Below, in pieces: positions 30,331 to 49,856 of a stretch of 64,000 nt of DNA. A program made the position numbers and the translations under genes. Each line of letters starts with the position of its first letter. Within the stretch, counting starts at the first letter, position 1. This DNA is from a virus, in the IMG/VR virus record IMGVR_UViG_3300008110_004617, positions 1 to 64,000 of that record; one strand, given 5' to 3'. The notes beneath the pieces were generated by a model. It was not told the DNA's origin. It was given only the letters and a program-made list of their open reading frames with translations, and searched no databases.

Positions 30331-30338
30331 TATAAATA
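30331..30338 (+). promoter_or_regulatory. T4-type late promoter octamer for fibre module 1
   Basis: Exact TATAAATA 22 nt before the ATG at 30361. The 129-nt gap also holds an imperfect hairpin (about 30301-30327) just upstream. Confidence 0.75.
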
Positions 30339-33300: not shown

Positions 33301-33585
33301 GTTGAAAGTCTTTCGCATCAATTCAACCTTGCATCAGCCGGTGTTAACATAAATGCGCTTCCACTAAACTTTAGAAGACTAGGTGCGCCGATTTCAGCAT
33401 CTGCTTCTGTATCTCAAGAAGATGGTGGACGAGTAAGATGGTCCGGTGCAGACGAATTAAATAACCAATACTTCGCAAGAGGTCTTAAAATCAATGGTAG
33501 AACCGGTCGCCTTGAAGGAAGACCGTTTACATCTTCAGTTAGAAAACTAGCTCGTAGGGCTTCAAATAGTAGGGCAATCTTATGA
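30361..33585 (+). CDS. Large beta-helix tail fibre/structural protein, module 1
   Basis: A 1074-aa protein. Residues about 75-100 hold pentapeptide-like strands (DDSAVQDSTIQDSIIDDSVINNPNI). From about 140 it starts a right-handed beta-helix of the pectate-lyase-like type (IYVSVDGNDNNPGSYMQPVATLEKAVQMA), with FLLGSGCYVQGFSFFNFKVDN, GGFAFAFRPGVKITRSPYLRDC, GIGYVAKNGAGINGIS and ALNGGQITLNNSGTQFGD. The same blocks recur in the 540-aa protein at 56566, and both end alike (ARGLKINGRTGRLEGRPF; IGGMKIDADTGELTGPPF). Between them this copy has about 500 extra residues. Glycan recognition is possible; no catalytic residues are claimed. Confidence 0.78.
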   Translation: MSKISELGRITGSLTKSKDLFVTVSLDQGDDGTKTLTRAELVNAVQQEIFDTIKIDGGDYIQNIPLNNVTIDDSAVQDSTIQDSIIDDSVINNPNINVDTEFTPSISGDDYFYLKDISLGETVAMSYSQLYDEISKSVKKAKKIYVSVDGNDNNPGSYMQPVATLEKAVQMANAASLTVPTDILGRKLVHISVNPGSYYTNGELSLPDWCSVTSSSGQYTTNIVMNNGYESKNCFLLGSGCYVQGFSFFNFKVDNFDDPTGGFAFAFRPGVKITRSPYLRDCSQISNYFERDIPPLLNPFNSRGTIDDLGYELTISNVSPSASKFEVGDRIETSNGVAGVISRIAEIGSGTIYVRNNTGLFESNTSITTSSGGTATITDVGEEDYPNKDVGRGGGMILADRAHVDQDSLFPYILAFGATPRTQNGIGYVAKNGAGINGISSLSIFSRCSFYALNGGQITLNNSGTQFGDISMRAKGSTPVFNPYQTSVLLSSNTVLADTLTNSANTIIDDLIDNYITANTSVGGLGLQTYNSTKCERDVGYILEGVGYDLALGTNYWSIVNGIAYRRAESEIVVDEQLVETSGAIEYLKTTVAELLEESPESVTRTDDSFDEIIDILENGIASADALVFSSTGNTNFNKARLLLIANRTLIRNRVISYINTTYPALVYDETLCSRDTGFIVDALTHDLNYNSNIATIVNADAYFTNAVSTLPVDQRAPTADAIRFLGTICSSIMLGTLSGQSTASGIATQAEANRCIELTGIIERVISKNSLQELPGAQEPDLSWVSTVYKNSKELIEKNVKKLKKLTVAFVNSEYNFIDDNLTRRDARNLITSIANDFKLGRQTGTRIFTAGLFNFQGKHVFSVFNPNTVGLNYIGSYASTSAVSATTVNVNDAIIVYSSPSNLYAGTVYYSNGSAWVSDGANDVDLLNAFTGSFNHIRTYIKNNITTSVANETMLDGLIDDVLIASVRNPSVINFGSLVESLSHQFNLASAGVNINALPLNFRRLGAPISASASVSQEDGGRVRWSGADELNNQYFARGLKINGRTGRLEGRPFTSSVRKLARRASNSRAIL

Positions 33586-34046
33586 CAGCAAACACTGTAA
33601 TCACGACAGTTAGAACATCGCAGTCTCCGGACGCAAAACCAGTAGCAGTAAATAAAACGCTAACAACAAATTTTGTTGAAATTATTTCAGTGCCTGATTT
33701 TGAAGTACCAGAACTTGTGTTTGGTGGTAGCTTTATAACCGCGCCTGGTGTAGCAGAAGTTATATCTCCACTTATGATTTCAAATAAAACACCAAATACC
33801 GTGTATGTAGATCTTCAGATATATCGTCTATATGATTACTCTACAGATCCAGTCACATCCGTCACTGGCACATTTTCTCTAGCAACAAACATACCAATTC
33901 CAGGATACGACGTGCTTCCGTTTCCACTCAATGGACAGTTCTTCTATAATGGAGATCTTCTTGAGGCGAAGGCGAGTACAAACGATGCTATAGACATTAC
34001 ATTATCGTTTACACTTGGGCAAGCAGAAGAATACTTGGAGGATTGA
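33582..34046 (+). CDS. 154-aa structural protein, module 1
   Basis: A 154-aa beta-rich protein starting in an ATGA overlap with the beta-helix gene. It occupies the same place and has the same length as the protein at 58191. The similarity is weak but shares an order of features (an early PDF..P segment, a middle PL/PI..N...V segment, then a GD/NGD.L segment). Probably a fibre-associated or joint protein; function not known. Confidence 0.65.
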   Translation: MTANTVITTVRTSQSPDAKPVAVNKTLTTNFVEIISVPDFEVPELVFGGSFITAPGVAEVISPLMISNKTPNTVYVDLQIYRLYDYSTDPVTSVTGTFSLATNIPIPGYDVLPFPLNGQFFYNGDLLEAKASTNDAIDITLSFTLGQAEEYLED

Positions 34047-34049
34047 TAT

Positions 34050-35585
34050 ATGACTCTTAAGACACTAAGAGGTAAAATTCCAATAATAGGGCCTGCTATT
34101 AAGCAGGCACTACCTATTCAATTAGATCCTACTGCATATGAAGGTTCTATTTTATACGCAGAAGATGGTGCATTAAGAATATCTGATGGAGCTAATTGGA
34201 ACGTTGTAAGTCCAGGATCACAGGGTATTCAAGGCGTACAGGGTATTCAAGGCATACAAGGCATTGGCTCCCAAGGCATACAGGGCCCGCAGGGCGTACA
34301 AGGTATCCAAGGTTTTCAGGGCGTACAAGGGAATTTAGGGCCTGGTATTAATATCATTGGTTCCGTACCAGATGTAAATGTGGCTCCTCCAAATAACCCT
34401 CAAACTACTTTAAATGCCGCCTTTCCAGCAGCTTTAGCTGGCGACGCAGTAATTGACGAAGCACTAGGTGATGTCTGGGCATATAACGGCACAACTTGGA
34501 TTAACGGTGGAGAAATAAGAGGCCCACAGGGTATACAAGGTACTCAAGGTATACAAGGTCTTCAGGGTAGCAATGGAAACACTGGCGGTCAAGGTACTCA
34601 AGGTTTTCAAGGTACTCAAGGTTTTCAAGGTACTCAGGGTATAAGAGGCGACGAGGGAATTCAAGGTACGCGAGGCTTTGTGGGAGAGCAAGGCACTCAA
34701 GGCATTCAGGGATCGCAAGGTGTTCAGGGTGATTTAGGAAACCAAGGTACTCAAGGTATTCAGGGCCCACAGAGTGTGCAGGGACCTCAGGGTGTACAAG
34801 GTAATTTAGGAAACCAAGGTACTCAAGGACTTGAGGGCGCAGCAGCATTCCAGGGCATCCAGGGTACACAGGGTCCTACTGGTATTCAAGGTGCGACTGG
34901 CGTTCAAGGTACAACTGGTTCGCAAGGCATTCAGGGTACAACTGGAACTCAGGGAACGATCGGTACTCAGGGAGCAACCGGTGTACAAGGAACGACAGGC
35001 ACACAAGGTCTTACTGGAACACAGGGCCTTGGTGGTACTGGAACACAAGGTTTTCAAGGTACAACAGGCGAACAAGGAACGACGGGTACACAAGGTACAA
35101 CTGGAACACAAGGAACTATTGGATCTCAAGGTGTCAGTGGAACAGTCGGCGGAACCGGTGTACAGGGAACTCAAGGACTCCAAGGCAATCAAGGTGAACA
35201 AGGACTTCAGGGAACTCAGGGTGAACAAGGAACTACTGGCTCGCAAGGTGTTGATGGTACTATCGGAGGCACCGGTGTACAGGGAACTCAAGGGACGACA
35301 GGCGAACAAGGAACTACTGGCTCGCAAGGCGTTGATGGTACTATCGGAGGCACCGGTGTACAGGGAACTCAAGGGACGACAGGCGAACAGGGAACGACCG
35401 GAACCCAGGGTGCTGGCGGTGGTACAGGAAGTACTGGTGTACAGGGTACACAGGGAACGACCGGTGCGCAAGGTACTACTGGAACGCAGGGAATAACCGG
35501 ATCTCAAGGTACTACAGGCTCGCAAGGAATTTCTGGAGCAGCCACTACAGTAAGCGATGATACCCGGAACTTTAAACGCGACTGA
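34050..35585 (+). CDS. Collagen-like tail fibre, module 1 (S74 domain out of frame)
   Basis: A 511-aa protein. A 60-residue N-terminal domain (TLKTLRGKIPIIGPAIKQALPIQLDPTAYEGSILYAEDG) is followed by Gly-X-Y triplets (GTQGIQG, GTTGTQG) interrupted at about residues 95-160 by a small domain (INIIGSVPDVNVAPPNNPQ...DVWAYNGTTWINGG). It ends shortly after the collagen rod at ATTVSDDTRNFKRD. Compared with module 2, the fibre should continue through a linker into an S74 chaperone; here that domain is encoded from 35557 in another frame. Collagen-like triplets form trimeric rods in phage fibres. Confidence 0.8.
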   Translation: MTLKTLRGKIPIIGPAIKQALPIQLDPTAYEGSILYAEDGALRISDGANWNVVSPGSQGIQGVQGIQGIQGIGSQGIQGPQGVQGIQGFQGVQGNLGPGINIIGSVPDVNVAPPNNPQTTLNAAFPAALAGDAVIDEALGDVWAYNGTTWINGGEIRGPQGIQGTQGIQGLQGSNGNTGGQGTQGFQGTQGFQGTQGIRGDEGIQGTRGFVGEQGTQGIQGSQGVQGDLGNQGTQGIQGPQSVQGPQGVQGNLGNQGTQGLEGAAAFQGIQGTQGPTGIQGATGVQGTTGSQGIQGTTGTQGTIGTQGATGVQGTTGTQGLTGTQGLGGTGTQGFQGTTGEQGTTGTQGTTGTQGTIGSQGVSGTVGGTGVQGTQGLQGNQGEQGLQGTQGEQGTTGSQGVDGTIGGTGVQGTQGTTGEQGTTGSQGVDGTIGGTGVQGTQGTTGEQGTTGTQGAGGGTGSTGVQGTQGTTGAQGTTGTQGITGSQGTTGSQGISGAATTVSDDTRNFKRD

Positions 35586-35862
35586 GTTTAACTCCCTTTC
35601 CGATGTTGCATACAAAGAAGATTTCCAAACGATAGATAGTGCTACAGACATACTCGATAAAATAAAGGCATATCAGTTTACGTGGAAAAACACCGGTGTT
35701 AAAAGCTACGGTGTAATTGCGCAAGAACTTGAAAAGTTACTACCAGAACTAATAAACAATACGCATGGTTCTAAGTATGTCAACTACATTCCTCTAATTG
35801 CTATCTTGTTAGAAGGATATAAAGATCTTTCTAGTCGTATAAAGAGTTTAGAAAAAGAATAA
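35557..35862 (+). CDS. Detached S74 chaperone domain, module 1 (frame-shifted)
   Basis: A 101-aa ORF overlapping the collagen gene end in a different frame. It encodes FNSLSDVAYKEDFQTIDSATDIL, KSYGVIAQELEKLLPELI and IPLIAILLEGYKDLSSRIKSLEKE, a complete S74-type chaperone with the S-D cleavage site. The ATG lacks a good ribosome-binding site. Relative to module 2, the linker between VSDDDT and STGDLSATNFNSLSD has lost about 30 codons and the frame has shifted. It may be translated separately, made by frameshifting, or be a recent mutation or assembly error. Confidence 0.65.
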   Translation: MIPGTLNATEFNSLSDVAYKEDFQTIDSATDILDKIKAYQFTWKNTGVKSYGVIAQELEKLLPELINNTHGSKYVNYIPLIAILLEGYKDLSSRIKSLEKE

Positions 35863-35916
35863 ATATACACGACAGCCGAGTATCCTACGTGGACGCGAAG
35901 ATGGCTTGATGATTGA

Positions 35917-36105
35917 ATCAGTGATCGCCGCTTTGTCTCCAAGTATATATTCACCCTTTTACAAAGACCGACGGGTGTAACTGGCCAATTAAGATATAAC
36001 ACAACGGACGCAACATTCGAAGGTTTTAACGGGACTGCGTGGGGCCCGCTAGGGGGTGGTGCTGACGAACTTGCAAGAACTCTGGCAACGTTGGCGCTAC
36101 CATAA
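35917..36105 (+). pseudogene. Tail-fibre tip remnant without a start codon
   Basis: An open frame after a TGA at 35914, with no start codon, encoding LQRPTGVTGQLRYN, ATFEGFNGTAWGPLGGGADEL and ATLALP before TAA. The GQLRYN...FEGFNGTAWG pattern is typical of phage fibre C-terminal tips. Its stop overlaps the ATG of the first propeller gene (TAATG). Most likely the end of a fibre gene whose front part was deleted. The rest of 35863-35916 holds no gene. Confidence 0.55.
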
Positions 36106-37454
36106 TGACTGTAGGAATACAACCACTCGTAGATGAAGTAAATACAAATGTAGCAGGGGCGTTAACAACCCTAGAGCAGTTGCAACTCGCGAGTGTAATG
36201 CAAGATTTTGATCAAGGATTTACAAAGTGCGTAGCTAACTGCGCAGCGCTTCCAGCTGCGGCTGATAACAAAGGTCGTTGGATCTTTCTTCAAGACGTTT
36301 GCAGTTATCGTTGGAGCGACGGGACAGCTTGGTCAAGAGATTTTGCTAGTATTGAACAAAATATTGCTTTTTCATTTGGATGCAATGCTGATAACCAGCT
36401 GGGTGACAGAACCACAACCAACAGATCTTCTCCAGTGTCAGTCTTAGGTGATGTCTTATACTGGTGTCAGGTGAGCGCTGGTAATGGATTTAATATTGGA
36501 GTTCGCAGTGATATGACTGCTTGGGGTTGGGGCTGTAACGCAGGGGGCGAACTAGGTGACTGTACTAGCGTTAATAGAATCATACCTAGGCCAGTCGTTG
36601 GTGGCTTTGGTGACTGGTGTCAGGTTAGTGCCGGAGCAAATCATAGTATAGGTGTTCGTCAGAATGGAACTGCTTGGGCCTGGGGGTTGGGATCATGTGG
36701 TCAGCTGGGTGATGGAACTTCAGTAAGCAAGTCTTCTCCAGTATTAGTCGTCGGCGGTTTTACGGACTGGTGTCAAGTAAGCGCCGGTCAACACTTCATA
36801 CTTGGTGTTCGTCAAAATGGAACGGCCTGGGGTTGGGGTTGTGGTAGTGGAGGTCGTCTCGGTAACGAAACAACAGTCAATAAATGTTCTCCAGTATCAG
36901 TTGTTGGCGGTTTTAGTGACTGGTGTCAGGTTAGCGCTGGGACCGCTCACAGTCTAGGTGTTCGACAGAACGGGACCGCTTGGGCCTGGGGATGTAATAC
37001 TTGTGGCCCACTGGGCGACGGCACTACAGTTGCTAAATCTTCTCCTGTGTCAGTCGTAGGTGGCTTTACCGACTGGTGTCAGGTTAGTGCCGGAGCAAAT
37101 CATAGTCTAGGTGTTCGACAGAATGGAACTGCTTGGGGTTGGGGTGCTGGCGCTGACGGACGCATTGGTAACGGAACTATAGTTAGTGTATCTTCTCCAG
37201 TGTCAGTCGTCGGCGGGTTCACGGACTGGTGTCAAGTAAGTGCCGGGCTTGGGCACAGTCTAGGCGTTCGCCAAAATGGCACCGCTTGGGCTTGGGGACA
37301 GGGTTCAACTGGTCGTCTTGGTGATGGCACGGTCGTAAACAAATCTTCTCCAGTGTCAATCGCTGGCGGACTAACCGGTTGGAGATGCGTAAGTATATAT
37401 ACAAATGGTAATCATAGCTTAGCTGTTAGATCTGATAGTACGAAGGGTTTTTAA
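36105..37454 (+). CDS. RCC1-type seven-bladed beta-propeller protein A
   Basis: A 449-aa protein. An N-terminal domain of about 85 residues (CAALPAAADNKGRWIFLQDVCSYRWSDGTAW) shared in outline with its five paralogues is followed by seven RCC1-like blades of about 52 residues: W-G-x4/5-G-x-L-G-D-x-T, then SSPVSVVGGFTDWCQVSAG, then HSLGVRQNGTAW. Seven blades make a closed propeller. Variable residues cluster after WG (CNAD, CNAG, LGSC, CGSG, CNTC, AGAD, QGST) and before HSLGV, the loop positions. Probably a virion receptor-binding head; RCC1 itself is a eukaryotic chromatin factor and no such function is implied. Its ATG overlaps the stop of the fibre-tip remnant. Confidence 0.82.
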   Translation: MTVGIQPLVDEVNTNVAGALTTLEQLQLASVMQDFDQGFTKCVANCAALPAAADNKGRWIFLQDVCSYRWSDGTAWSRDFASIEQNIAFSFGCNADNQLGDRTTTNRSSPVSVLGDVLYWCQVSAGNGFNIGVRSDMTAWGWGCNAGGELGDCTSVNRIIPRPVVGGFGDWCQVSAGANHSIGVRQNGTAWAWGLGSCGQLGDGTSVSKSSPVLVVGGFTDWCQVSAGQHFILGVRQNGTAWGWGCGSGGRLGNETTVNKCSPVSVVGGFSDWCQVSAGTAHSLGVRQNGTAWAWGCNTCGPLGDGTTVAKSSPVSVVGGFTDWCQVSAGANHSLGVRQNGTAWGWGAGADGRIGNGTIVSVSSPVSVVGGFTDWCQVSAGLGHSLGVRQNGTAWAWGQGSTGRLGDGTVVNKSSPVSIAGGLTGWRCVSIYTNGNHSLAVRSDSTKGF

Positions 37455-37455
37455 T

Positions 37456-38769
37456 ATGAACGTAACGAATCTAATACTCAATCTTAAATCAAAAATCGGC
37501 GATGCTACGATTGATCAGCAGATGCTTTCAAAAGCAATAAAATTGTTAGAACTTGGTACTATTGAATCAGTTTCATCATTTTCAAGTCTTCCGAACGCTG
37601 CTACAACAGGCAGAGATAAATTATACTTGGTTGAGTTTGACGGCCTATACAAAACTAACGGAACTTATTGGGCGCCTTTTGCTCAGGATTTTTCACCAGC
37701 TTTTTCCTGGGGATGTAATACTTGTGGCCCACTGGGCGACGGCACTACAGTTGATAAGTCTTCTCCAGTGTCAGTCGTTGGTGGCTTTACCGACTGGTGT
37801 CAGGTAGATGCAGGTCACAACCATAGTCTAGGAGTTCGTACTAACGGAACTGCTTGGGCTTGGGGTCAAGGCACAAATGGTCGCCTTGGTGACAACACAA
37901 ACGTTTCAAAATCTTCGCCTGTGTTAGTCTCTGGAGGATTTAGTGACTGGTGTCAGGTAAGCGTTGGATATATGCATAGTATAGGAGTTCGACAGAACGG
38001 GACCGCTTGGGCTTGGGGTGCTGGTATTGGCGGACAACTTGGTGATAATACAATAGTTGATAAGTCTTCTCCTGTGTCAGTCGTTGGTGGATTTACAGAC
38101 TGGTGTCAAGTAAGTGCTGGGGAATGCTACAATTTAGGAGTGCGCCAAGGTGGGGGCGCTTGGGCGTGGGGATCGGCAATCAACGGGAAACTAGGCGACG
38201 GAACAACAGTCGGTAAATCTTCGCCAGTATTAGTAGCAGGCGGTTTTAGTGACTGGTGTCAGGTAGATGCAGGTAACTACCATAGTCTAGGAGTTCGACA
38301 GAACGGGACTGCTTGGGCTTGGGGCACTGGTTGCCGTGGGCAGGTTGGTGACGGAACAACAGTTAATAAATCTTCTCCTGTGTTAGTCGTAGGTGGCTTT
38401 ACCGACTGGTGTCAGGTTAGTGCCGGATTTGTTCACAGCATAGGAGTTCGTCAGAATGGAACCCTGTGGGCATGGGGGCAAGGGGTAGGAGGTCTACTAG
38501 GTGATAACACTGTAGTTGCTAAATCTTCTCCAGTGTCAGTCGTTGGAGGTTTTACAGATTGGTGCCAAGTGAGTGCTGGAGGTGTTCACAGTTTGGGTAT
38601 TCGCACAAATGGAACAGCTTGGGCTTGGGGTTGCGGCACAAATGGTCGCCTTGGTGATAATACAACAGTTAATAAATCTTCGCCTGTGTTAGTCTCTGGA
38701 GGATTTAGTGACTGGTGTCAGGTAAGTACTTTTGTCACTAGCGCAGCAATTAGGAGAACGAATGTATGA
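37456..38769 (+). CDS. RCC1-type seven-bladed beta-propeller protein B
   Basis: A 437-aa paralogue with N-terminal domain FSSLPNAATTGRDKLYLVEFDGLYKTNGTYW and seven blades. Loop motifs after WG are CNTC, QGTN, AGIG, SAIN, TGCR, QGVG and CGTN. Blade 1 shares 48 identical bases with blade 5 of protein A (37706-37753 and 36985-37032), including the variable loop. It starts 1 nt after the previous stop and overlaps the next gene by 4 nt. Confidence 0.82.
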   Translation: MNVTNLILNLKSKIGDATIDQQMLSKAIKLLELGTIESVSSFSSLPNAATTGRDKLYLVEFDGLYKTNGTYWAPFAQDFSPAFSWGCNTCGPLGDGTTVDKSSPVSVVGGFTDWCQVDAGHNHSLGVRTNGTAWAWGQGTNGRLGDNTNVSKSSPVLVSGGFSDWCQVSVGYMHSIGVRQNGTAWAWGAGIGGQLGDNTIVDKSSPVSVVGGFTDWCQVSAGECYNLGVRQGGGAWAWGSAINGKLGDGTTVGKSSPVLVAGGFSDWCQVDAGNYHSLGVRQNGTAWAWGTGCRGQVGDGTTVNKSSPVLVVGGFTDWCQVSAGFVHSIGVRQNGTLWAWGQGVGGLLGDNTVVAKSSPVSVVGGFTDWCQVSAGGVHSLGIRTNGTAWAWGCGTNGRLGDNTTVNKSSPVLVSGGFSDWCQVSTFVTSAAIRRTNV

Positions 38770-40136
38770 ACTTAGCACAATTTCAAATATTACTCCAAAA
38801 AGCAATCGACAGTTCAAGTAATACACTCGATTACCTATTTCTATCAAGAGCAGTCCAAACTCTAGCCGTAGGACAGGTAAGAGAAGTTGCCACATACGCA
38901 AACTTACCTTCAGCTGCATCTAACGAAGGACTGTTAGTATTCGTAACGGCGGATGAAAGGATTTATTGGAGTACTGGAACTGGCTGGTATAATCTTATCG
39001 ATGAAAATAAAGGAATTGCGTATGCATGGGGTGGTGGGGGCAGAGGTAAACTAGGTGATAATACAGAAGTCAATAAATCTTCTCCAGTTTCAGTCATTGG
39101 TAGCTTTACAGACTGGTGTCAAGTAAGCGCCGGTGGTAGTCACAGTATTGGCCTTCGCTCTAACGGAACTGTCTGGGCATGGGGGTGTAGTGCATATGGC
39201 CGCCTCGGTGATAACTGCACTGTTCTACCAAGTTCTTCTGGTAGATCTTCACCAGTATCAGTAGTCGGCGGTTTTACAGACTGGTGTTATGTAAGTGCCG
39301 GGGATGACCACAACTTAGGTGTTCGTACTAATGGAACTGCATGGGGTTGGGGAAACCCGTGCCATGGGGTACTAGGTAACAACTTCAACGGTTCCATTAA
39401 TGTTATTGATGGAACCGGTGGTTTCTCTTCTCCAGTGTCAGTCGTTGGTGGCTTTACAGACTGGTGCCAAGTGAGCGCTGGGGGCAGTCACAGTCTAGGT
39501 GTTCGACGGAACGGGACCGCTTGGGCTTGGGGATGCGGTAGTTACGGTCTTCTTGGCGATGGCACTACAGTATGCAAGTCTTCTCCAGTATTAGTCGTCG
39601 GCGGTTTTACGGACTGGTGTCAGGTAGATGCAGGTGGCGGTCGCAACTTAGGTGTTCGCCAAAATGGAACTGCATGGGGTTGGGGTTGCGGCTCCAATGG
39701 TCGCCTTGGTGACGGAACAACAGTTAATAAATCTTCTCCAGTGTCAGTAGTTGGAGGCTTTACCGACTGGTGTCAGGTTAGCGCTGGGTCCGCTCACAGT
39801 CTAGGTGTTCGTACTAACGGAACCGCTTGGGCGTGGGGAGCGGCTTTCTGCGGGAAACTAGGCGACGGAACAACAGTCAATAAATCTTCGCCAGTATCAG
39901 TCGTCGGTGGGTTCTTTGACTGGTGTCAGGTTAGTGCCGGAGCAAATCATAGTCTAGGTGTTCGCCAGAATGGAACCGCTTGGGCATGGGGAATTGCTGC
40001 TTGCGGCGTTTTAGGATCTGGTGCGCCTGCCAATGCATCTTCTCCAGTATCAGTCGTCGGTGGCTTTACAGACTGGTGTCAAGTAAGCGCTAGCAATTAT
40101 CACAGCTTAGCTCTAAGAAGAACAAATTTCGTATAA
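38766..40136 (+). CDS. RCC1-type seven-bladed beta-propeller protein C
   Basis: A 456-aa paralogue (N-terminal ATYANLPSAASNEGLLVFVTADERIYWSTGTGW). Seven blades; blades 2 and 3 have lengthened loops (NCTVLPSSSGRSSP and NNFNGSINVIDGTGGFSSP) where the others have about nine residues, and blade 7 has GSGAPANASSP. This is the most loop-varied member. ATGA overlap with gene B. Confidence 0.82.
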   Translation: MNLAQFQILLQKAIDSSSNTLDYLFLSRAVQTLAVGQVREVATYANLPSAASNEGLLVFVTADERIYWSTGTGWYNLIDENKGIAYAWGGGGRGKLGDNTEVNKSSPVSVIGSFTDWCQVSAGGSHSIGLRSNGTVWAWGCSAYGRLGDNCTVLPSSSGRSSPVSVVGGFTDWCYVSAGDDHNLGVRTNGTAWGWGNPCHGVLGNNFNGSINVIDGTGGFSSPVSVVGGFTDWCQVSAGGSHSLGVRRNGTAWAWGCGSYGLLGDGTTVCKSSPVLVVGGFTDWCQVDAGGGRNLGVRQNGTAWGWGCGSNGRLGDGTTVNKSSPVSVVGGFTDWCQVSAGSAHSLGVRTNGTAWAWGAAFCGKLGDGTTVNKSSPVSVVGGFFDWCQVSAGANHSLGVRQNGTAWAWGIAACGVLGSGAPANASSPVSVVGGFTDWCQVSASNYHSLALRRTNFV

Positions 40137-40160
40137 TGATAATTACAAAGGAGAAAATAA

Positions 40161-40802
40161 ATGTATGCAGTAGTTTATAACGATAGAGTAATTGTCGGAC
40201 CAATGGATTGGAACCGCGCAATTTTTCAAGGATCTCTAGAAAAAGAAAATGTCACGGCTGGCATTCCTAGAGTAGCGCCAGAAACTCTTCCATATATTAT
40301 TAATGAAGACACAAGAATTGCACTAGTAGAAGAACAGAGACCAGAAATCAATCCTATGGTAGAATACTACTATGGACCACAGTGGGATCTTTCCGGTGAC
40401 AAGGCGGTCGCAGTATATGAAGTAGTAGATACACTAGTTGATTTCGCTCGCGATAATTTTAAAACTAAAGCGGCCGAAGCAAGATGGAAAAAAGAAACAG
40501 CTGGAACGAAAATAAATATACAAGGTACCGAAGTTAGTCTAGATACTAGCCGTGACGGAAGAAATATTTTCATACAGAAGTATTCTATTATGACGGAAGA
40601 AGAAGTTGCAAATTGGAAATTCCCAGAAGGTTGGCTCACTCTTACAAAGAGCGATCTTGGTTCTATTGTTTCTGCCGGTTCGAGTTATATTCAAAGTTGC
40701 TTTGACTGGGAGAAAACAATTAATGATGAAATTAATGCAGCGACATCAAAAGAAGAATTGGTATCTATTGGTGAACAAATAGCGGAACAGATGGTAGAAT
40801 AA
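40161..40802 (+). CDS. DUF4376-like fibre-associated protein inside the propeller array
   Basis: A 213-aa protein without RCC1 repeats that divides the array into two sets of three. The stretch FKTKAAEARWKKETAGTKINIQGTEVSLDTSRDG recalls the DUF4376 region of phage fibre-assembly proteins, and an acidic helical tail follows. GGAG upstream gives its own initiation site. A role in attaching or chaperoning the propeller proteins is inferred from position. Confidence 0.6.
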   Translation: MYAVVYNDRVIVGPMDWNRAIFQGSLEKENVTAGIPRVAPETLPYIINEDTRIALVEEQRPEINPMVEYYYGPQWDLSGDKAVAVYEVVDTLVDFARDNFKTKAAEARWKKETAGTKINIQGTEVSLDTSRDGRNIFIQKYSIMTEEEVANWKFPEGWLTLTKSDLGSIVSAGSSYIQSCFDWEKTINDEINAATSKEELVSIGEQIAEQMVE

Positions 40803-40803
40803 T

Positions 40804-42168
40804 ATGCCCCCAATCGATAAACCAGGTTTGGTATCAAAACTAACGACCGTAGTTAATACTGCGTATGAAACCGGGTCATATCTTGTTGAAGACGTATTAG
40901 CAACATCTTTATCTATGACTGCACTGAGTGAGATTAATATTGTCACTGTATCTGACGTACTTTCATTGCCGAATCTTAAATATTACGATTCGCCAAACGC
41001 AATGATCTATTACGTTAACGATATAGACGTATTTGCGGTAAGTTCTAATTTTAAGTGGCTAACACTTGACGGCAGGCTTCTAAGGCAGGATACCACATAC
41101 GGAAAAATTTGGTCTTGGGGAAATAACAATCTTGGCCAACTAGGTGATAGTACAGCAGTTTCTAAATCGTCTCCGGTATCAACTGCACCATCTGGTTGGT
41201 GTCAGTTAAGCGCTGGCGAATGTCATAGTTTGGCCGTCTGTACAAATGGTACAGCATGGGCTTGGGGTTCAAACTTTTTAGGTAAACTTGGTGACAATAC
41301 TGCTGTCACCAAGTCTTCTCCAGTGTCAGTAGTTGGCGGCTTCACAGACTGGTGCCAAGTTAGTGCTGGGAACTATCATAGTCTAGGTGTTCGCACTAAT
41401 GGAACGGCTTGGGCTTGGGGGGCAAACACTTTTGGGCAGCTAGGTGACTGCACTACAGTCGCAAAGTCTTCACCAGTATCAGTAATTAGCGGTATTACAG
41501 GGTGGTGTCGTGTAAGCGCAGGCACACTGTTTAGTATCGGAATTAGAGCAAACGGTGAAGCGTTTGGTTGGGGCAATGCCGGGTCTGGCCGTCTTGGGGA
41601 TGGTACCACAGTTTCTAAATCTTCGCCTGCTCTAATTTCTGGAGGATTTAATAACTGGTGTCAGGTTAGTGCTGGCGGAGGTCATGCACTAGGAGTGCGT
41701 ACCAATTCATCCGTTTGGGCTTGGGGAGGAAACTCTTTCGGTCAACTCGGTGATAACACGGTAGTTTCTAAATCTTCTCCAGTACAAGTAGTCGGTGGTT
41801 TTAATAACTGGCGCGAGGTAAGCGCTGGTGGGTGTCACAGCCTTGGCCGCAGATCTGATGGAACTTTATATGCCTGGGGGAATGGTTGCTGCGGCAACCT
41901 CGGAGACAACTGCACAGTTTCCAGATCATCTCCAGTGTCAGTCTCTGGAGGATTTACAGACTGGTGCCAAGTAAGCGCAGGATGCTGCCATAATATAGGT
42001 GTTAGAACTAATGGCACAGTCTGGGCTTGGGGTGTCGGGACATGTGGTCGTCTAGGAGACAATGCTGTCGCTAATAGATCTTCGCCAGTATCAGTCGTTG
42101 GTGGCTTTACAAGCTGGTGCGCGGTTAGTGCAGGTAACGACCATAGTCTAGGGATAATAAGCTTATGA
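40804..42168 (+). CDS. RCC1-type seven-bladed beta-propeller protein D
   Basis: A 454-aa paralogue with seven blades. Its N-terminal domain is the longest (residues 1-95; VLSLPNLKYYDSPNAMIYYVNDIDVFAVSSNFKW). Loop motifs after WG: NNNL, SNFL, ANTF, NAGS, GNSF, NGCC, VGTC. Several blades depart from the DWCQVSAG consensus (GWCQLSAG, NWREVSAG, SWCAVSAG), so this gene is less homogenised than E and F. ATGA overlap with gene E. Confidence 0.82.
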   Translation: MPPIDKPGLVSKLTTVVNTAYETGSYLVEDVLATSLSMTALSEINIVTVSDVLSLPNLKYYDSPNAMIYYVNDIDVFAVSSNFKWLTLDGRLLRQDTTYGKIWSWGNNNLGQLGDSTAVSKSSPVSTAPSGWCQLSAGECHSLAVCTNGTAWAWGSNFLGKLGDNTAVTKSSPVSVVGGFTDWCQVSAGNYHSLGVRTNGTAWAWGANTFGQLGDCTTVAKSSPVSVISGITGWCRVSAGTLFSIGIRANGEAFGWGNAGSGRLGDGTTVSKSSPALISGGFNNWCQVSAGGGHALGVRTNSSVWAWGGNSFGQLGDNTVVSKSSPVQVVGGFNNWREVSAGGCHSLGRRSDGTLYAWGNGCCGNLGDNCTVSRSSPVSVSGGFTDWCQVSAGCCHNIGVRTNGTVWAWGVGTCGRLGDNAVANRSSPVSVVGGFTSWCAVSAGNDHSLGIISL

Positions 42169-43523
42169 TAAATTCACAAAATCTCGTAAATAAAATTTGT
42201 GCTTGCATAAGCGGGGGCGGGCTTACAGCGTTACAAACTTGCCAAACAAACGGTGCCCTAACTATTCTAAGTAATCCTGTATCTAGCGTAGCAAGTTTTG
42301 CTAACTTGCCAAACGCAGTAACATACGCAGGAAGACTGATATATGTTAATGATGAAAACCGCTATTATCACGCGGTAGACGGATATTGGTTTAATAATCT
42401 CACTAGTGAAGTTTTTAACTATCGCCCAGACATTTATGCTTGGGGATATAATGCCACAGGTGGGCTTGGCGACGGAACCGTAGTCAACAGATCTTCTCCA
42501 GTATCAGTCGTTGGCGGCTTTACAGATTGGTGTAATGTAAGTGCCGGATACCTCCACGGTTTAGGTGTTCGTACTAATGGAACCGCTTGGGCATGGGGTG
42601 GTGGGTCATGCGGGCGTCTCGGTGATAACACATCGGTGAATAAATCTTCTCCAGTATCAGTTGTTGGCGGCTTTACAGACTGGTGTCAAGTGAGCGCTGG
42701 GAACGCTCATAGTCTAGGTGTTCGTACTAATGGAACTGCTTGGGCATGGGGTCCTGGGACATACGGTCGCCTCGGTGACAACAGCACAGTTTCCAGATCA
42801 TCTCCAGTATCAGTTGTTGGCGGCTTTACAGACTGGAGTCAAGTAAGCGCTGGGGGCAGTCACAGTCTAGGTATTCGACGAAATGGAACGACTTGGGCAT
42901 GGGGGAATGGGTCATGCGGGCGTCTCGGTGACGGAACAACAGTTGCTAAATCTTCTCCTGTGTCAGTCGTTGGTGGATTTACAGACTGGTGCCAAGTAAG
43001 CGCTGGGCGCGGCATATTGGGCACTCACAGTCTAGGTGTTCGTACTAATGGAACTGCATGGGCTTGGGGGGATGGAACATGCGGTCGCCTTGGTAATAAT
43101 ACAATAGTCAACAGATCTTCCCCAGTATCAGTCGTTGGCGGCTTTACCGACTGGTGTCAGGTTAGTGCCGGAGCAAATCATAGTCTAGGTGTTCGACAGA
43201 ACGGGACCGCTTGGGCTTGGGGAACTGCATTCTGCGGCGTTCTTGGCGACAACACGATAGTTTCAAAATCTTCTCCAGTGTCAGTCGTCGGCGGGTTCAC
43301 GGACTGGTGTCAAGTAAGCGCAGGCGAAACTCATAATCTAGGATTAAGAACTAATGGAACACTGTGGGCGTGGGGTTCTAACACCCAAGGTCGTCTAGGG
43401 GATAATACTATTACAGCTAAGTCTTCGCCAGTGTCAATCGTAGGTGGACTAACTGGCTGGTGTCAAATAAGCGCTAACCTTTGCTCTAGCATGGCTATTC
43501 GCCAATCACGGAAAGGATTTTAA
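42165..43523 (+). CDS. RCC1-type seven-bladed beta-propeller protein E
   Basis: A 452-aa paralogue, N-terminal ASFANLPNAVTYAGRLIYVNDENRYYHAVDGYW and seven blades. Four loops share a GxxG pattern with Cys (GGSC, NGSC, DGTC) or Tyr (PGTY). One blade has a three-residue insertion before HSLGV (SAGRGILGTHSLGV). It is joined directly to the following gene (stop then ATG without a gap). Confidence 0.82.
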   Translation: MINSQNLVNKICACISGGGLTALQTCQTNGALTILSNPVSSVASFANLPNAVTYAGRLIYVNDENRYYHAVDGYWFNNLTSEVFNYRPDIYAWGYNATGGLGDGTVVNRSSPVSVVGGFTDWCNVSAGYLHGLGVRTNGTAWAWGGGSCGRLGDNTSVNKSSPVSVVGGFTDWCQVSAGNAHSLGVRTNGTAWAWGPGTYGRLGDNSTVSRSSPVSVVGGFTDWSQVSAGGSHSLGIRRNGTTWAWGNGSCGRLGDGTTVAKSSPVSVVGGFTDWCQVSAGRGILGTHSLGVRTNGTAWAWGDGTCGRLGNNTIVNRSSPVSVVGGFTDWCQVSAGANHSLGVRQNGTAWAWGTAFCGVLGDNTIVSKSSPVSVVGGFTDWCQVSAGETHNLGLRTNGTLWAWGSNTQGRLGDNTITAKSSPVSIVGGLTGWCQISANLCSSMAIRQSRKGF

Positions 43524-44858
43524 ATGGCTACGCAAGATGACATAAACAACTTTACTTCTAGTAATTCTGTCGGATGCTTTTTAAAGCTAGCAGCACAAAC
43601 ATACGTTGATACTACGAATAGAAGTATTTCTGTTGCGACCGTAGACGATCTTCCGGACTTAAGCGGTAATACTATTATACCAGGAACTATATTTTACGTT
43701 GAAAGTTTGGGTGTTCCAGTAATTGCGCAAGTCGGGTGCTGGAGCGGATTGGATAACCGTCAGTTAAGAAGCGATTTTAATACGAATTTAATTTACGCGT
43801 GGGGGTTTCCTACTTCAGGACGCCTAGGTGATAATACTACTGTGTCTAAATCTTCTCCAGTGTTAGTCGCTGGAGGGTTTAATGACTGGCAAGCAGTAAG
43901 CGGCACTGGCTCGCATGCCTTAGGCATACGTTCTAATGGAATCGCTTGGGCTTGGGGTGCTGGTACTTCTGGAGAACTTGGTGATAATACAACAGTTGAT
44001 AAATCTTCTCCAGTGTCAGTCGTTGGTGGCTTTACAGACTGGTGTCAAGTAAGCGGTGGTGGTGTTCACAGTTTGGGTATTCGTACTAATGGAACTGCAT
44101 GGGGTTGGGGCGCAAACACTTTTGGCAATATTGGTGATAACACCGGTGGTGGTAAATCTTCTCCTGTGTCAGTCGTAGGTGGCTTTACAGACTGGTGTCA
44201 AGTGAGCGCTGGGAACGCTCACAGTCTAGGTGTTCGTACTAATGGAACTGCATGGGGTTGGGGATGTAATACTGGCGGTGGACAACTTGGCGACAACACG
44301 ACAGCGACTAAATCATCACCAGTATCGGTTGTTGGCGGCTTTACAGACTGGTGCCAAGTAAGTGCGTCGGTGCACAGTCTAGGTGTTCGCCAAAATGGCA
44401 CCGCCTGGGCTTGGGGGGATGGAGCATGCGGGCGTCTTGGTGATTACACTACAGTTGCTAAATCTTCTCCAGTGTTAGTCGTCGGCGGGTTCACGGACTG
44501 GTGTCAAGTAAGCGCAGCAAGATGCCATAGTCTAGGTGTTCGACAGAACGGGACCGCTTGGGCTTGGGGTCTTGGAACTGACGGCCGTCTCGGTGACAAC
44601 ACTGTAGCTGCCAAATCTTCTCCAGTGTCAGTCGTCGGTGGCTTTACGAACTGGTGTCAGGTGGCTACAGGCTGCACCCACAGCATAGGTGTCCGACAGA
44701 ACGGAACTGTCTGGTCTTGGGGTGACAACACCTTTGGACAACTAGGTCACGGCACTTTGGTTGCTAGATCTTCTCCAGTGTCAGTTGCTGGTGGGTTAAC
44801 CGGCTGGAGTCAAGTTAGCGCAGGCATAGTGTTCAGCACAGCCGTAAGAGCAGTATAG
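43524..44858 (+). CDS. RCC1-type seven-bladed beta-propeller protein F
   Basis: A 444-aa paralogue closing the array; N-terminal TVDDLPDLSGNTIIPGTIFYVESLGVPVIAQVGCW, seven blades. Loop motifs: FPTS, AGTS, ANTF, CNTGG, DGAC, LGTD, DNTF. One loop is one residue longer (CNTGGGQLG), and one blade is shortened before HSLGV (SASVHSLGV). After it there are 131 nt without a gene, containing a late promoter octamer. Confidence 0.82.
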   Translation: MATQDDINNFTSSNSVGCFLKLAAQTYVDTTNRSISVATVDDLPDLSGNTIIPGTIFYVESLGVPVIAQVGCWSGLDNRQLRSDFNTNLIYAWGFPTSGRLGDNTTVSKSSPVLVAGGFNDWQAVSGTGSHALGIRSNGIAWAWGAGTSGELGDNTTVDKSSPVSVVGGFTDWCQVSGGGVHSLGIRTNGTAWGWGANTFGNIGDNTGGGKSSPVSVVGGFTDWCQVSAGNAHSLGVRTNGTAWGWGCNTGGGQLGDNTTATKSSPVSVVGGFTDWCQVSASVHSLGVRQNGTAWAWGDGACGRLGDYTTVAKSSPVLVVGGFTDWCQVSAARCHSLGVRQNGTAWAWGLGTDGRLGDNTVAAKSSPVSVVGGFTNWCQVATGCTHSIGVRQNGTVWSWGDNTFGQLGHGTLVARSSPVSVAGGLTGWSQVSAGIVFSTAVRAV

Positions 44859-44874
44859 CATCATAGTTTTTTTG

Positions 44875-44882
44875 TATAAATA
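44875..44882 (+). promoter_or_regulatory. T4-type late promoter octamer for the sugar cassette
   Basis: Exact TATAAATA 107 nt before the first gene of the cassette, in an AT-rich 131-nt gap. No intrinsic terminator was seen in this gap, although a T7 run (44868-44873 region) precedes the octamer. Confidence 0.65.
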
Positions 44883-44989
44883 GAGTAGAAGCTATTAAAC
44901 TCATAGCGTCGCAAAAAGATCTTATATAAAATTTTAGACTTTTTGAGTAATTTTAATATTACAAACTTTTAATATGAAAGGTGATTTAA

Positions 44990-45550
44990 ATGAAGATTAA
45001 TCTTGGCGCTGGTGGAACGAAGCTCGATGGTTTTGTAACTCTAGATTACGACCCGCTTGAAAATCCAGACTATATCGTAGATCTGGAAAAAGACACACTG
45101 CCATTCGAAGATAGCACAGTTGAAGTTGTTATCGCTCATCACATACTCGAACATCTTGGGCCTGGTTATTTCCATTGCCTTAAAGAAATCTATCGAGTCT
45201 GTAAGCATGGAGCGACGATAGACATTCGTGTTCCGCATCATCGGCACGACTACTTCTACGACGACCCAACACATCGTAGACCAATTACTGTTGGTGGTCT
45301 TCTTCTTTTTAGTAAGAAACATAATAAACTATGCAGGGAACAAGGCGCTGCGTCAAGCAGACTCGGTGATTACTTTAAAGTTGACTTTGAGATCCTAGAT
45401 TACAACTATATGCCATCTCAGCAATACCGAGATCAGTTTGTTGGTGAACCGAGAGATGTTGTTGAAAAGTATCTTCGCGAACACAATAACATTATTGAAG
45501 AACTCTGGGTGAATTTAGTGGTGATCAAAGATGAACACGGCGGAAAATAA
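44990..45550 (+). CDS. SAM-dependent methyltransferase (type 11-like)
   Basis: A 186-aa class I methyltransferase: INLGAGGTKLDGFVTLDYDP (SAM-binding motif I and the acidic ribose contact), LPFEDSTVEVVIAHHILEHL (motif II region) and CLKEIYRVCKHGATIDIRVPH. Family members modify sugars, lipids or small molecules. It opens the surface-modification cassette and overlaps the next gene by 20 nt. AAAGGTG upstream supports the start. Confidence 0.8.
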   Translation: MKINLGAGGTKLDGFVTLDYDPLENPDYIVDLEKDTLPFEDSTVEVVIAHHILEHLGPGYFHCLKEIYRVCKHGATIDIRVPHHRHDYFYDDPTHRRPITVGGLLLFSKKHNKLCREQGAASSRLGDYFKVDFEILDYNYMPSQQYRDQFVGEPRDVVEKYLREHNNIIEELWVNLVVIKDEHGGK

Positions 45551-46880
45551 ATTTAAGATAGAAGATCTAAAACCCGTTGTAATGGATCTTCTATCTCACG
45601 AAAAACGCGAAATCGTATTTGATATTCTTAACATGTATTTTCAAAGAGCAGAGGGTATAGGGGACTTTGATGCTCTTGGATATCTGGCACTAAAAGCAGA
45701 ACACCGCGATTTGTATCTGAAATGTGCAGAAGCTGCATATACGAAGGCCGAAAGTCCTCAACAACTATACATCGCCAGATCAAACCTCTATAAAGCATAT
45801 AACGCAATGAATATGCCGGATGATGCTCTATTCTATATTAATCTAAATCTGATGATCACGCCGGATGACTTTGAGACTCAGACTCAAAAAGCGTTTAATA
45901 TCGCACTCAAGGGAGATAGAACGGCGTCAGAAAAGATACTGTTAGACTTACTTGAAAAACATCCAGAGAAGCGAGAGGACATGAGAAGTGCTCTGTCGGG
46001 TAAAACGCTTCGTGAAGGAAAACTTGCAGAGGGAGTCTTGTCGTTCCTTGGGACGTTTAAGCCAAAGAGTGGCAAGTTTGATGATGCTCTTAAGATGAAG
46101 CGGTGGACCGGAGCAATTCAACCAGGTAAGACTGTCTATATAGAGGGAGAGGGAGGTATAGGTGACGAGATCATCAACATTCGCTTTTTCAAATATCTTA
46201 AAGACTTAGGAATGAGACCAATACTCTACTCGTCGTGGTCTAAGTATCGCGAAGACACCGTGAATATGTTTCGTAGAAATGGGTTTGAAGTAATAACTGA
46301 GTACTATTCAATTGATCGGACACAACTATGGGCACCGATGATGAGTCTTCCAGGGTATCTCAATCTCGACGAATCTAAATTGTGGTATGGTTCGTATCTT
46401 AAACCTTTGAATGATCCAAAGAATAAAATCAATAGCACTAAGTTTAAAATTGGTATCAAGTGTTCAGGAAATCCATACTTTTCGCAAGATGAGTATCGTA
46501 AGATACCAATCGAAAAGATGTTAGAATACTTACCAGAGAACGCAGAGATCTATTACATCGACAAGCAGCCAATAAATAATCCTAGAGTAATAGATCTATC
46601 GTCAAGAATAGAAACTTGGGAAGATACACTCGACTTTATTGAACAGATGGACTGTATCGTAAGTTCGTGCACGAGCTTGGTTCATGCCGCTGGCGCTATC
46701 GGAAAAACATCTTTTGTTGTAGTTCCAATTGCGGAGTATTACATTTGGTCTACTTCCAGTAAGACGTCAAAGTCTCCTTGGTATGGAGATAACTTTCAAG
46801 TACACAAACAGACTAAAGTTCGAAGCTGGGACGAACCTCTGCAATGCGTAAATGAACAACTTTTGAAATTGATTGGATAA
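45531..46880 (+). CDS. TPR protein with GT9-like glycosyltransferase domain
   Basis: A 449-aa protein. Residues about 1-190 are helical repeats of TPR type (YIARSNLYKAYNAMNMPDDALFYINLNLMITPDDFE). The C-terminal half looks like a GT-B glycosyltransferase of the heptosyltransferase group: VYIEGEGGIGDEIINIRFFKYL, FKIGIKCSGNP, and SSCTSLVHAAGAIGKTSFVVVP, the family's nucleotide-sugar site. A protein-anchored or LPS glycosyltransferase is likely; substrate unknown. Confidence 0.7.
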   Translation: MNTAENKFKIEDLKPVVMDLLSHEKREIVFDILNMYFQRAEGIGDFDALGYLALKAEHRDLYLKCAEAAYTKAESPQQLYIARSNLYKAYNAMNMPDDALFYINLNLMITPDDFETQTQKAFNIALKGDRTASEKILLDLLEKHPEKREDMRSALSGKTLREGKLAEGVLSFLGTFKPKSGKFDDALKMKRWTGAIQPGKTVYIEGEGGIGDEIINIRFFKYLKDLGMRPILYSSWSKYREDTVNMFRRNGFEVITEYYSIDRTQLWAPMMSLPGYLNLDESKLWYGSYLKPLNDPKNKINSTKFKIGIKCSGNPYFSQDEYRKIPIEKMLEYLPENAEIYYIDKQPINNPRVIDLSSRIETWEDTLDFIEQMDCIVSSCTSLVHAAGAIGKTSFVVVPIAEYYIWSTSSKTSKSPWYGDNFQVHKQTKVRSWDEPLQCVNEQLLKLIG

Positions 46881-46882
46881 TT

Positions 46883-47659
46883 ATGAACAAAACATATCAC
46901 TTCATAACAGGTCTGCCTCGGTCGGGTTCAACTCTGTTATCATCTATACTTCGTCAGAACCCAAGGTTTCACGCTTCAATTACTGACCCACTGGCAAGTC
47001 TAGTTAAGGGAGTTATTGAACATAGTCAAGACGCTCCTGGAATGAAATCTGAAGTTCCTGTTGAACGCAGAAAGAACCTTGTGCGGCATTTATTCGAAGG
47101 TTACTACGAAGACGTCGATAGGCCAGTAGTATTCAATACAAATAGAGCATGGACATACCTAACAAATGTTACTCGTGATCTCTATCCAAAATCAAAATAC
47201 ATAGTTTGTGTAAGGGATTTGAATTGGGTAATAGACAGCTTTGAGTCTGCCCATCGCAGAAATCCATTCTCCACAAACACGGTGACTGGTGGCGTAGGAA
47301 GTTCAGTGTATCAACGAGTAGATAGTCTTATGAAGGAAGACGGGGTTGTAGGTTTTCCATACGTTGGAATTAAGCAGGCTCTTACTGGTCATGATCAGCC
47401 ACTTCTGTTCTTATTAGAATACGACTTGTTGTGCAAGCAGCCAAAAGAAATGATGAAAGCTCTTTACAACTTCATAGAAGAACCTTATTTTGAACATGAT
47501 TTTAATAATGTAGAAGCTTCTTGGGATGAGTACGACGCAGAGATTGGTATTAAACTTCACGACGTTCGTAAGAAAGTTGAATTCCGCGAAAGAAAGTTTA
47601 TACTTCCACCAGATATCCTTAATAAGCACGCAAATATGGAATTTTGGCGACAACTATGA
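46883..47659 (+). CDS. Sulfotransferase
   Basis: A 258-aa protein with the PAPS 5'-phosphosulfate loop GLPRSGSTLLSSIL at residues 10-23 and the 3'-phosphate region KYIVCVRDLNWVIDSFESAHRRNP. Enzymes of this family move sulfate from PAPS to sugar or other hydroxyl groups. Sulfotransferases occur in other marine T4-like phages. It ends in an ATGA overlap with the next methyltransferase. Confidence 0.82.
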   Translation: MNKTYHFITGLPRSGSTLLSSILRQNPRFHASITDPLASLVKGVIEHSQDAPGMKSEVPVERRKNLVRHLFEGYYEDVDRPVVFNTNRAWTYLTNVTRDLYPKSKYIVCVRDLNWVIDSFESAHRRNPFSTNTVTGGVGSSVYQRVDSLMKEDGVVGFPYVGIKQALTGHDQPLLFLLEYDLLCKQPKEMMKALYNFIEEPYFEHDFNNVEASWDEYDAEIGIKLHDVRKKVEFRERKFILPPDILNKHANMEFWRQL

Positions 47660-49845: not shown

Positions 49846-49856
49846 TTGGAGAATCT

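Follow-up and report, generated by a model that had tools for sequence, protein, structure and literature searches.

The 64,000-nucleotide stretch analyzed here (hereafter the window) is part of a 76,389-base IMG/VR virus record, IMGVR_UViG_3300008110_004617, and carries at positions 36105-44858 an array of six genes encoding RCC1-type seven-bladed propellers. Nearly identical contigs differ in this array by short tracts that exchange loops on one face of the propeller, and for several of these tracts an exact, in-register copy is found in another blade. We propose, as the probable explanation, that the array encodes virion-borne binding heads combining a selected scaffold, one diverse binding face kept by in-register gene conversion, and N-terminal domains in fixed slots of three classes (A, B and C). 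Direct support comes from the predicted fold, the variability of one face, the in-register copying of tracts, the occurrence of nearest blades within the same phage, the fixed N-terminal slots and the balance between classes A, B and C.

The propeller array and its variable face

The genes of the array are the following:

36105..37454, + strand: RCC1 propeller gene 1, N-terminal class A, seven blades
37456..38769, + strand: RCC1 propeller gene 2, N-terminal class B, seven blades
38766..40136, + strand: RCC1 propeller gene 3, N-terminal class B, seven blades, two of them with longer loops
40161..40802, + strand: DUF4376 gene, 213 residues, matching phrog_10508 ('tail fiber protein'), between genes 3 and 4
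40804..42168, + strand: RCC1 propeller gene 4, N-terminal class C, seven blades
42165..43523, + strand: RCC1 propeller gene 5, N-terminal class A, seven blades, AlphaFold predicted local distance difference test (pLDDT) 90.2
43524..44858, + strand: RCC1 propeller gene 6, N-terminal class C, seven blades, AlphaFold pLDDT 85.9

Each propeller gene has an ATG start and an open frame of its own, and packing is tight, with spacings of 1, -4, 24, 1, -4 and 0 bases across the six RCC1 genes and the DUF4376 gene. Cutting at the WG motif delimited 42 blades, seven in each gene, of which 32 are 51 residues long; the first blade is preceded by 84-104 residues in each protein. The Pfam RCC1-like domain PF25390 (194-253 bits, cut-off 150) and PF00415 both scored above their curated cut-offs in all six proteins, which also match the phrog_4219 profile ('regulator of chromosome condensation') with E-values of 2e-14 to 7e-27. 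Matches to the RCC1-like domain in the 76-kb record were confined to these six genes, and no silent copy was found there. An earlier note on this DNA had counted six genes with seven blades each, 42 in total, a count that the reading frames, the WG splitting and the PF25390 matches confirm. It had also called the genes consecutive and placed them between fibre genes. The six genes are indeed neighbours, but the DUF4376 gene, whose product is possibly a fibre assembly or adaptor protein, splits the third from the fourth; fibre genes do lie upstream, whereas downstream there is a methyltransferase, sulfotransferase and nucleotide-sugar cluster, the next collagen-like gene being located at 58661.

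AlphaFold2 models cover two of the six proteins, gene 5 (35 window and locus proteins aligned) and gene 6 (18 sequences). Both were predicted as closed seven-bladed propellers with four strands per blade (predicted template-modelling score 0.79 and 0.76, respectively), as the earlier note had anticipated; in gene 6 the N-terminal helix region was poorly predicted. When compared to the PDB, the gene 5 model gave template-modelling scores, by target length, of 0.83-0.90 with UVR8, HERC2 and RPGR and of 0.75-0.84 with human RCC1, and a sequence profile search agreed with these structural neighbours. The blade strands are S1 (SPVSVV), S2 (CQVSAG), S3 (HSLGV) and S4 (TAWAW), and the last blade appears to be closed by a strand that precedes the first one. 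By strand order rather than measured coordinates, we defined face A as loops S4-S1 and S2-S3, and face B as loops S1-S2 and S3-S4; the A loops share one face because adjacent strands are antiparallel.

Across the 42 blades, positions 2, 4, 5, 7, 36 and 37 each take 9 to 16 residue types, and entropy is below 1.5 bits at 39 of the 51 blade positions. Mean entropy is 1.79 bits in face-A loops versus 0.94 in face-B loops (one-sided Mann-Whitney p = 0.034), and nine of the ten most variable positions belong to face A, the tenth being a Q/T position of face B. With the same strand borders applied, face A was the more variable one in 11 of 11 other loci (p from <0.001 to 0.036), where it holds 5 to 8 of the eight most variable positions. 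Proportions of nonsynonymous (pN) and synonymous (pS) differences between blades, for which 31 of the 42 could be used, were 0.12 and 0.62 in the framework (pN/pS 0.20), and 0.64 and 0.76 in the loops (pN/pS 0.84, saturated at both kinds of site). Since the framework ratio is 0.20 despite a pS of 0.62, its constancy reflects selection and not merely recent copying. The constant scaffold with variable loops that had been suggested is thus real, as judged by entropy, by pN/pS and by the bias also seen in the 11 other loci, and its variability, once mapped on the propeller, is concentrated in the loops of one face.

The loops also have an unusual composition. Cysteine makes up 13.1% of the hypervariable loop positions versus 0.4% of the framework (one conserved cysteine position excluded) and 0.53% of eight other proteins of the window. 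In related arrays, loop cysteine reaches 11-13% (L011, L012, L013 and L050) or 5.6% (L021), and the loops of L051 and of Synechococcus phage S-SRM01 are rich in tyrosine or glutamine instead.

Exchange of tracts between blades

We compared the window with 11 nearly identical contigs from ten IMG/VR assemblies, one of which could be the window's own assembly. The comparison employed ungapped stretches within, at most, 35953-49257, that is, the array plus 152 bases of upstream and 4,399 bases of downstream flank; a variant common to several contigs was counted once per contig. Three contigs (c8448b, c8450 and c31787) cover only the end of gene 5 and gene 6, and in contig 3300008113_004172 (c8113) the rearranged gene 5 and all that follows were excluded. 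In that contig (L010, 14710-15940), gene 5 carries two internal deletions and a broken frame, by decay or misassembly.

Substitutions were absent from all 29,459 flank bases versus 109 in 63,911 array bases; 62 of the array substitutions are distinct, and they form 19 clusters. Three contigs (c8107, c8448b and c8450) showed no differences. In c8113, 31,704 aligned bases upstream of the array were free of substitutions, with one 18-base insertion and a 127-base stretch (4508-4634) absent, versus 13 substitution clusters in 6,494 array bases. Eight clusters hold at least three substitutions, seven of them in blades and one in the N-terminal part of gene 5. In five of these eight tracts, one allele is an exact in-register copy (26-80 bases) of another blade in the arrays searched, a match from which the direction of copying cannot be told. 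The principal tracts are listed below:

43376..43388, + strand: conversion tract in the loop after WG, gene 5 blade 7; 12 substitutions in 13 bases, two other contigs carrying 26 bases identical to gene 1 blade 7 (37293)
39434..39487, + strand: conversion tract in gene 3 blade 3; contig 3300008113_004172 carries 80 bases identical to gene 6 blade 3 (44157)
42599..42601, + strand: conversion tract in gene 5 blade 2; two contigs carry 40 bases identical to gene 5 blade 4 (42892)
39812..39821, + strand: conversion tract in gene 3 blade 5; two contigs carry an exact 68-base copy of the gene 1 blade 4 allele of a third contig
38073..38092, + strand: five-substitution tract in gene 2 blade 3; the window allele has 41 bases identical to gene 5 blade 4 (42951), and the other allele (two contigs) is without donor
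37873..37908, + strand: 12-substitution tract in gene 2 blade 2, common to two contigs; donor not found

Five of the seven blade tracts are present in two assemblies each, a recurrence that argues against random assembly error. Changed codons at variable positions are all nonsynonymous (18 versus 0 synonymous), compared to 3 versus 14 in the framework and 1 versus 6 in the N-terminal parts; the difference between variable positions and framework gave p = 3e-7, with the reservation that codons within one tract are not independent. This replacement of loops between near-identical contigs supports the evolving repertoire that the earlier note had envisaged. A switchable repertoire, its other suggestion, is not supported: every gene is open with its own ATG, packing is tight, the 76-kb record holds no silent copy, and no reverse transcriptase was found in 14 records, most of them fragments.

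The last observation also bears on a diversity-generating retroelement, in which an error-prone reverse transcriptase would rewrite the loops from a template repeat. Such elements are known to diversify phage receptor-binding proteins (PMC10743442), and the variable codons of the array are loop codons. However, no reverse transcriptase was found in the 14 records, two of which exceed 200 kb (the window's own being a 76-kb fragment), the changes are not limited to adenines and involve all base types in both directions, and synonymous framework changes travel with the loop changes and match other blades. Since no reverse transcriptase was found in these records and the substitutions are not adenine-specific, we rejected this mechanism and regard it as hardly credible.

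Another explanation is surface decoration, in which the proteins would form an adhesive or protective coat without specific binding, and the loops would drift neutrally. A loop pN/pS that does not exceed 1 fits this view. It does not account for the replacement of one face's loops while the other face stays fixed, nor for a biased loop composition with 13% cysteine, and we consider it quite unlikely.

Exchange between blades is also visible at larger distances. We compared 224 blade cores from five arrays, a set from which the search pattern missed a few degenerate blades (41 of the 42 in the window were taken). The most similar blade belonged to the same phage in 82% of cases versus 21% with shuffled labels. 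Within a phage, the nearest blade was in the same gene in 20% of cases (13% expected); in other phages, it occupied the orthologous slot in 15-25% of cases, where 17% would be expected, and had the same blade number in 12-19%, where 14% would be expected. Mean identity within a phage was higher than between phages in three of the five arrays (window, L011 and L012), and orthologous loops, with identities of 0.05-0.21, were no more alike than paralogous loops. A pattern search for relatives in bacterial genomes matched 13 stretches, none of which was confirmed.

Larger RCC1 genes were observed in a few loci. L042 (contig 3300008113_004802, 7727-13690) has no array and carries instead a single giant open reading frame of 1988 residues with 19 RCC1 blade hits. 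In L019 (contig 3300046318_000439) and L001, RCC1 reading frames with 14 and 19 blade hits stand beside the usual ones with 7, as if fused by sevens.

N-terminal slots, virion location and the weight of the evidence

The N-terminal parts behave differently from the propellers behind them. Among the window, L011, L013 and L021 they match slot by slot and in order (17 of 18 rows highest on the diagonal, with one tie), and orthologous slots have their N-termini, and not their propellers, in common. Clustering separated the N-termini into three classes, A, B and C. Classification employed profiles built without the tested array; the class labels came from joint clustering of all arrays, and the procedure is in this respect not fully blind. 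The order of slots is ABBCAC in the window, L011, L013 and L021, ABCABC in L050, ABCABCABC in L012, ABC in L049 and in the contig-end fragment L024, and AABBCC plus two unassigned genes in L019 and L023, which form one contig that ends in the array. L049 may itself be incomplete, its far contig end carrying another RCC1 fragment. Class counts are equal, for example 2:2:2 and 3:3:3. In a maximum-likelihood tree of 51 of the 62 N-termini, 17 per class (the 11 that did not fit the classes were left out), A, B and C each form one group, with support values of 91/93, 82/83 and 100/98.

Three RCC1 genes with N-termini outside classes A, B and C are found in each of S-SRM01, AG-345-E08 and L051. In nine of nine classified arrays, a DUF4376-like gene separates a B from a C gene; S-SRM01 and L051 also have one between RCC1 genes, and none was found near the RCC1 genes of AG-345-E08 and BUCT-ZZ01. 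We also considered whether all arrays have a multiple of three genes. This fits nine seemingly complete arrays (the window, L011, L012, L013, L021, L050, L051, S-SRM01 and AG-345-E08, the last in a 35-kb record), and is broken by BUCT-ZZ01, with one gene of 14 blades, and by L042, with its single reading frame of 19 blade hits. Such equal numbers and close gene packing point to joint production and use of the A, B and C proteins.

The location of the proteins can be approached through neighbours and relatives. The array lies in a tail-fibre region, downstream of baseplate wedge, fibre and S74-chaperone genes, and the match of the DUF4376 gene to a tail-fibre PHROG points to the same place. In Pseudomonas phage Ppr_SeaP2, the first 334 residues of protein SeaP2_12 carry tail-fibre PHROG matches (phrog_33642, 'tail fiber assembly') with an RCC1 propeller behind them; its Phage_T7_tail match is below cut-off (E 6e-5), and phrog_4219 matches along its length. 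Related RCC1 proteins have been detected by mass spectrometry in virions, namely three phrog_4219 proteins in W70 (PMC11370258) and gp1 of GAP32 (PMC5259590).

A further explanation is that the proteins order the phage DNA inside the head, by binding and condensing it, as their database names imply. The matching PHROGs families are filed under DNA metabolism, and the phAPEC6 (PMC7247149) and W70 (PMC11370258) papers suggest a role with packaged DNA. Hypervariable loops on one face and their turnover by conversion are, however, not what is expected of a DNA-packing protein; moreover, the array genes sit with fibres, and one relative is mounted on a tail-fibre-like N-terminus. We find a DNA-ordering role very unlikely.

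Under the explanation that we prefer, each protein would be built from a short N-terminal domain for attachment and, mounted on it, a closed seven-bladed RCC1 propeller. Selection would hold the scaffold and one face constant, and the other face, with two loops per blade and 14 per protein, would be the binding surface. Blades would copy short tracts into each other, in register, within and between the six genes, generating new combinations of loops without breakage of the fold, and the similarity of the scaffold would in turn keep recombination going. N-terminal domains would take no part in this exchange and would mark fixed slots A, B and C, the simplest reason for their equal numbers being that the three proteins assemble together. 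Turnover of the loops would most likely track the changing surfaces of the infected bacteria.

Several points weigh against this explanation. Three of the eight tracts (37873-37908, 39039-39041 and 42212-42224) have no donor in the arrays compared. Positive selection, or a ratio above 1, cannot be claimed for the loops, whose pN/pS of 0.84 is saturated. Mean identity within L013 is 0.660 versus 0.691 to L012, and within L021 it is 0.550 versus up to 0.615 to other phages; since within-phage means are not higher in these two arrays, homogenization is only partial. Variation reaches outside the array as well, the S74 fibre stretch 35572-35952 showing 15 substitutions in c8113, 96.06% identity in c31951 and 100% in L004. 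All contigs are metagenomic assemblies, some stretches of about 100-140 bases present in other contigs are missing from the window, and a second contig set (L020-L022) was too uniform to repeat the population test. As for the N-terminal domains, bootstrap support of groups A and B is below 95, and the balance between classes is weaker than it appears: the common order of four arrays is presumably due to descent, and duplication of an ABC unit would also yield balance, ABBCAC being the only order that departs from such units. At an E-value threshold of 0.001, no Pfam or PHROG fibre-attachment domain was found in any of the six proteins; a cyanophage 'baseplate wedge tail fiber connector' showed N-terminal similarity that was not significant (E 0.04-0.07), and a search with the gene 5 N-terminus found no match. 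Finally, tail-fibre position, receptor binding and selection by host surface change are inferred.

In yet another explanation, recombination would occur with co-infecting phages only, the tracts being imported from alleles of diverged strains and not from paralogous blades. The three tracts without donor fit such an import, as does the donorless non-window allele of a fourth; in pattern scans of viral contigs, the non-window alleles at 37873, 38073 and 39039 were each found only in their own carriers. Several tracts are common to two contigs, and two sets of changes in c8113, at 42182-42258 (gene 5 N-terminus) and at 35572-35952 (S74), resemble imported alleles. On the other hand, five tracts equal another blade exactly and in register, and the presence of nearest blades in the same phage requires exchange between paralogues at some stage. 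The mean identities of L013 and L021 and the differences in the S74 stretch count somewhat against our preferred explanation and in favour of import, which we nevertheless judge unlikely.

Outside the array, the differences around S74 correspond to two alleles of this end of the fibre gene, approximately 4% apart among near-identical contigs. Further local differences were found at 47378-47468 and at 49257, where a 138-base stretch is missing from the window; the array is therefore the main, and not the sole, variable place. Another stretch, 60761-61865 within a collagen-like gene of 1068 residues, differs or does not align between otherwise identical contigs. Near-identical contigs carry approximately 101, 108 and 138 bases that the window lacks at 35563-35564, 35952-35953 and 49257-49260, respectively, gaps that may be assembly errors; the first one separates the collagen-like fibre gene from its S74 domain.

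Neighbouring genes and comparison with known systems

Among the T4-type genes of the window are a gp44-like clamp loader and baseplate wedge genes; fibre genes come next and the array after them. Two features upstream of the array are the following:

34050..35862, + strand: collagen-like fibre with S74 chaperone domain, just upstream of the array; a single frame across the junction in the relative L004, two frames in the window
30331..30338, + strand: TATAAATA, which we take to be the T4 late-promoter core, 22 bases ahead of the fibre gene at 30361; on this strand the motif does not recur until 44875

A single late transcript covering 30331-44858 is only a guess, since the core motif occurs 7 times in the window versus 4.36 expected, not above chance. 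Sigma-70-like matches within the region, on both strands, were near chance (20 versus 14.8 expected, standard deviation 4.4), and terminator-like sites were below it (3 versus 8.2 expected). No RecA-type protein was found in the 76-kb record. The photosystem gene psbA was found in one of 14 records, S-SRM01, and in none of the 11 from IMG/VR; in S-SRM01 (L002, NC_070963.1; 207459-209450) the match to the photosystem II D1 gene is broken into three parts that surround a homing endonuclease gene, an arrangement suggestive of an intron-like element within the gene. Past the array, 44990-55818 carries methyltransferase, sulfotransferase, cytidylyltransferase-like and nucleotide-sugar epimerase genes and a weak glycosyltransferase match. 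S-SRM01 has a similar sugar and sulfotransferase cluster, with its third RCC1 gene inside.

Phage RCC1 arrays are already known, under the label of DNA condensation; an account of loop exchange was not found in the literature searched. The searches covered cyanophage RCC1, tail fibres, propeller receptor-binding proteins, heterotrimeric fibres and conversion of phage receptor genes, and returned no account of this system, many journals being outside their coverage. The Rak2-like and Vequintavirinae phages 121Q, PBECO4, phAPEC6 and W70 (phrog_4219) resemble our case in having several neighbouring RCC1-like genes per myophage genome, some of whose products are in virions, but these arrays are read in print as DNA condensation. 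For phAPEC6, 11 RCC1 genes with a suggested DNA-ordering role are described (PMC7247149), and 13 RCC1 copies are listed for 121Q (PMC5259590). The 121Q array (L079, 1984-11256) differs in that, among the 7 of 13 copies aligned at full length, six paralogues are 20-29% identical to the first, a comparison made above the level of blades; judged by eye, they are too diverged for the same design, and 121Q was set aside as a second example. All seven aligned 121Q paralogues start with nearly identical 15 residues, a possible attachment peptide.

S-SRM01 (RCC1 genes gp335, gp337 and gp344) resembles the window in that its DUF4376-like gp336 (27.5% identity, E 2e-16) lies between two of the three RCC1 genes, which adjoin a fibre gene and the sugar and sulfotransferase cluster; its N-terminal parts, by contrast, are short and cannot be assigned to class A, B or C. 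Neither RCC1 nor chromosome condensation appears in the main text of its genome paper (PMC8557907). The tail-fibre/RCC1 fusion of Pseudomonas phages (locus tag SeaP2_12 in Ppr_SeaP2; PollyC by name) shares an RCC1 propeller and tail-fibre matches at the N-terminus, but is a single gene with a T7-type fibre N-terminus (the Pfam match being below cut-off) and diverged blades.

Seven-bladed propellers are also found in BLIP-II, UVR8, HERC2 and RCC1. To our knowledge, neither BLIP-II nor RCC1-like domains occur as hypervariable multi-copy arrays. BLIP-II binds a beta-lactamase with a picomolar Ki, and its blades have three strands (PMC6121496), in contrast to four in our gene 5 and gene 6 models. 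In a different system, three virophage tail proteins are reported to bind Synechococcus lipopolysaccharide (PMC12724248). Fibres of cyanophage A-1(L) are trimers of one protein (PMC10966104), and an A-B-C trimer would be a mixed form of this common fibre plan.

If our explanation is correct, a phage diversifies its binding surface without a reverse transcriptase, paralogous blades template one another while the fold is protected, and multi-copy phage RCC1 proteins, now labelled 'DNA condensation', gain a different role. The balance between classes predicts a mixed complex, a precise and testable proposal, and isolates with related genes exist (S-SRM01 and BUCT-ZZ01 on Synechococcus), making direct testing possible.

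A parallel in design comes from the HNWD propellers of Podospora anserina (het-d, het-e), in which paralogues exchange repeats and each repeat diversifies at four surface residues (PMC1805685; PMC2873952). Repeat exchange within and between paralogues, and grouping by genome and not by orthologue, are common features; the variable residues of HNWD proteins lie on their interaction surface. HNWD proteins differ in being WD40, not RCC1, and fungal NACHT allorecognition proteins, and in having positive selection shown, which it is not in the phage array. Blades of the phage arrays group by genome (82% versus 21%, with slots not mirrored in the propellers), except for the mean identities in two of five arrays, and one face is variable, with a ratio of nonsynonymous to synonymous rates above 1 not shown. 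As a more tentative extension, on the doubtful side of even, the proteins may form obligate heterotrimeric binding heads of one A, one B and one C with different propellers, in which fixed sockets would carry interchangeable propellers with loops shuffled by conversion, a phage counterpart of fungal HNWD allorecognition that operates without reverse transcriptase.

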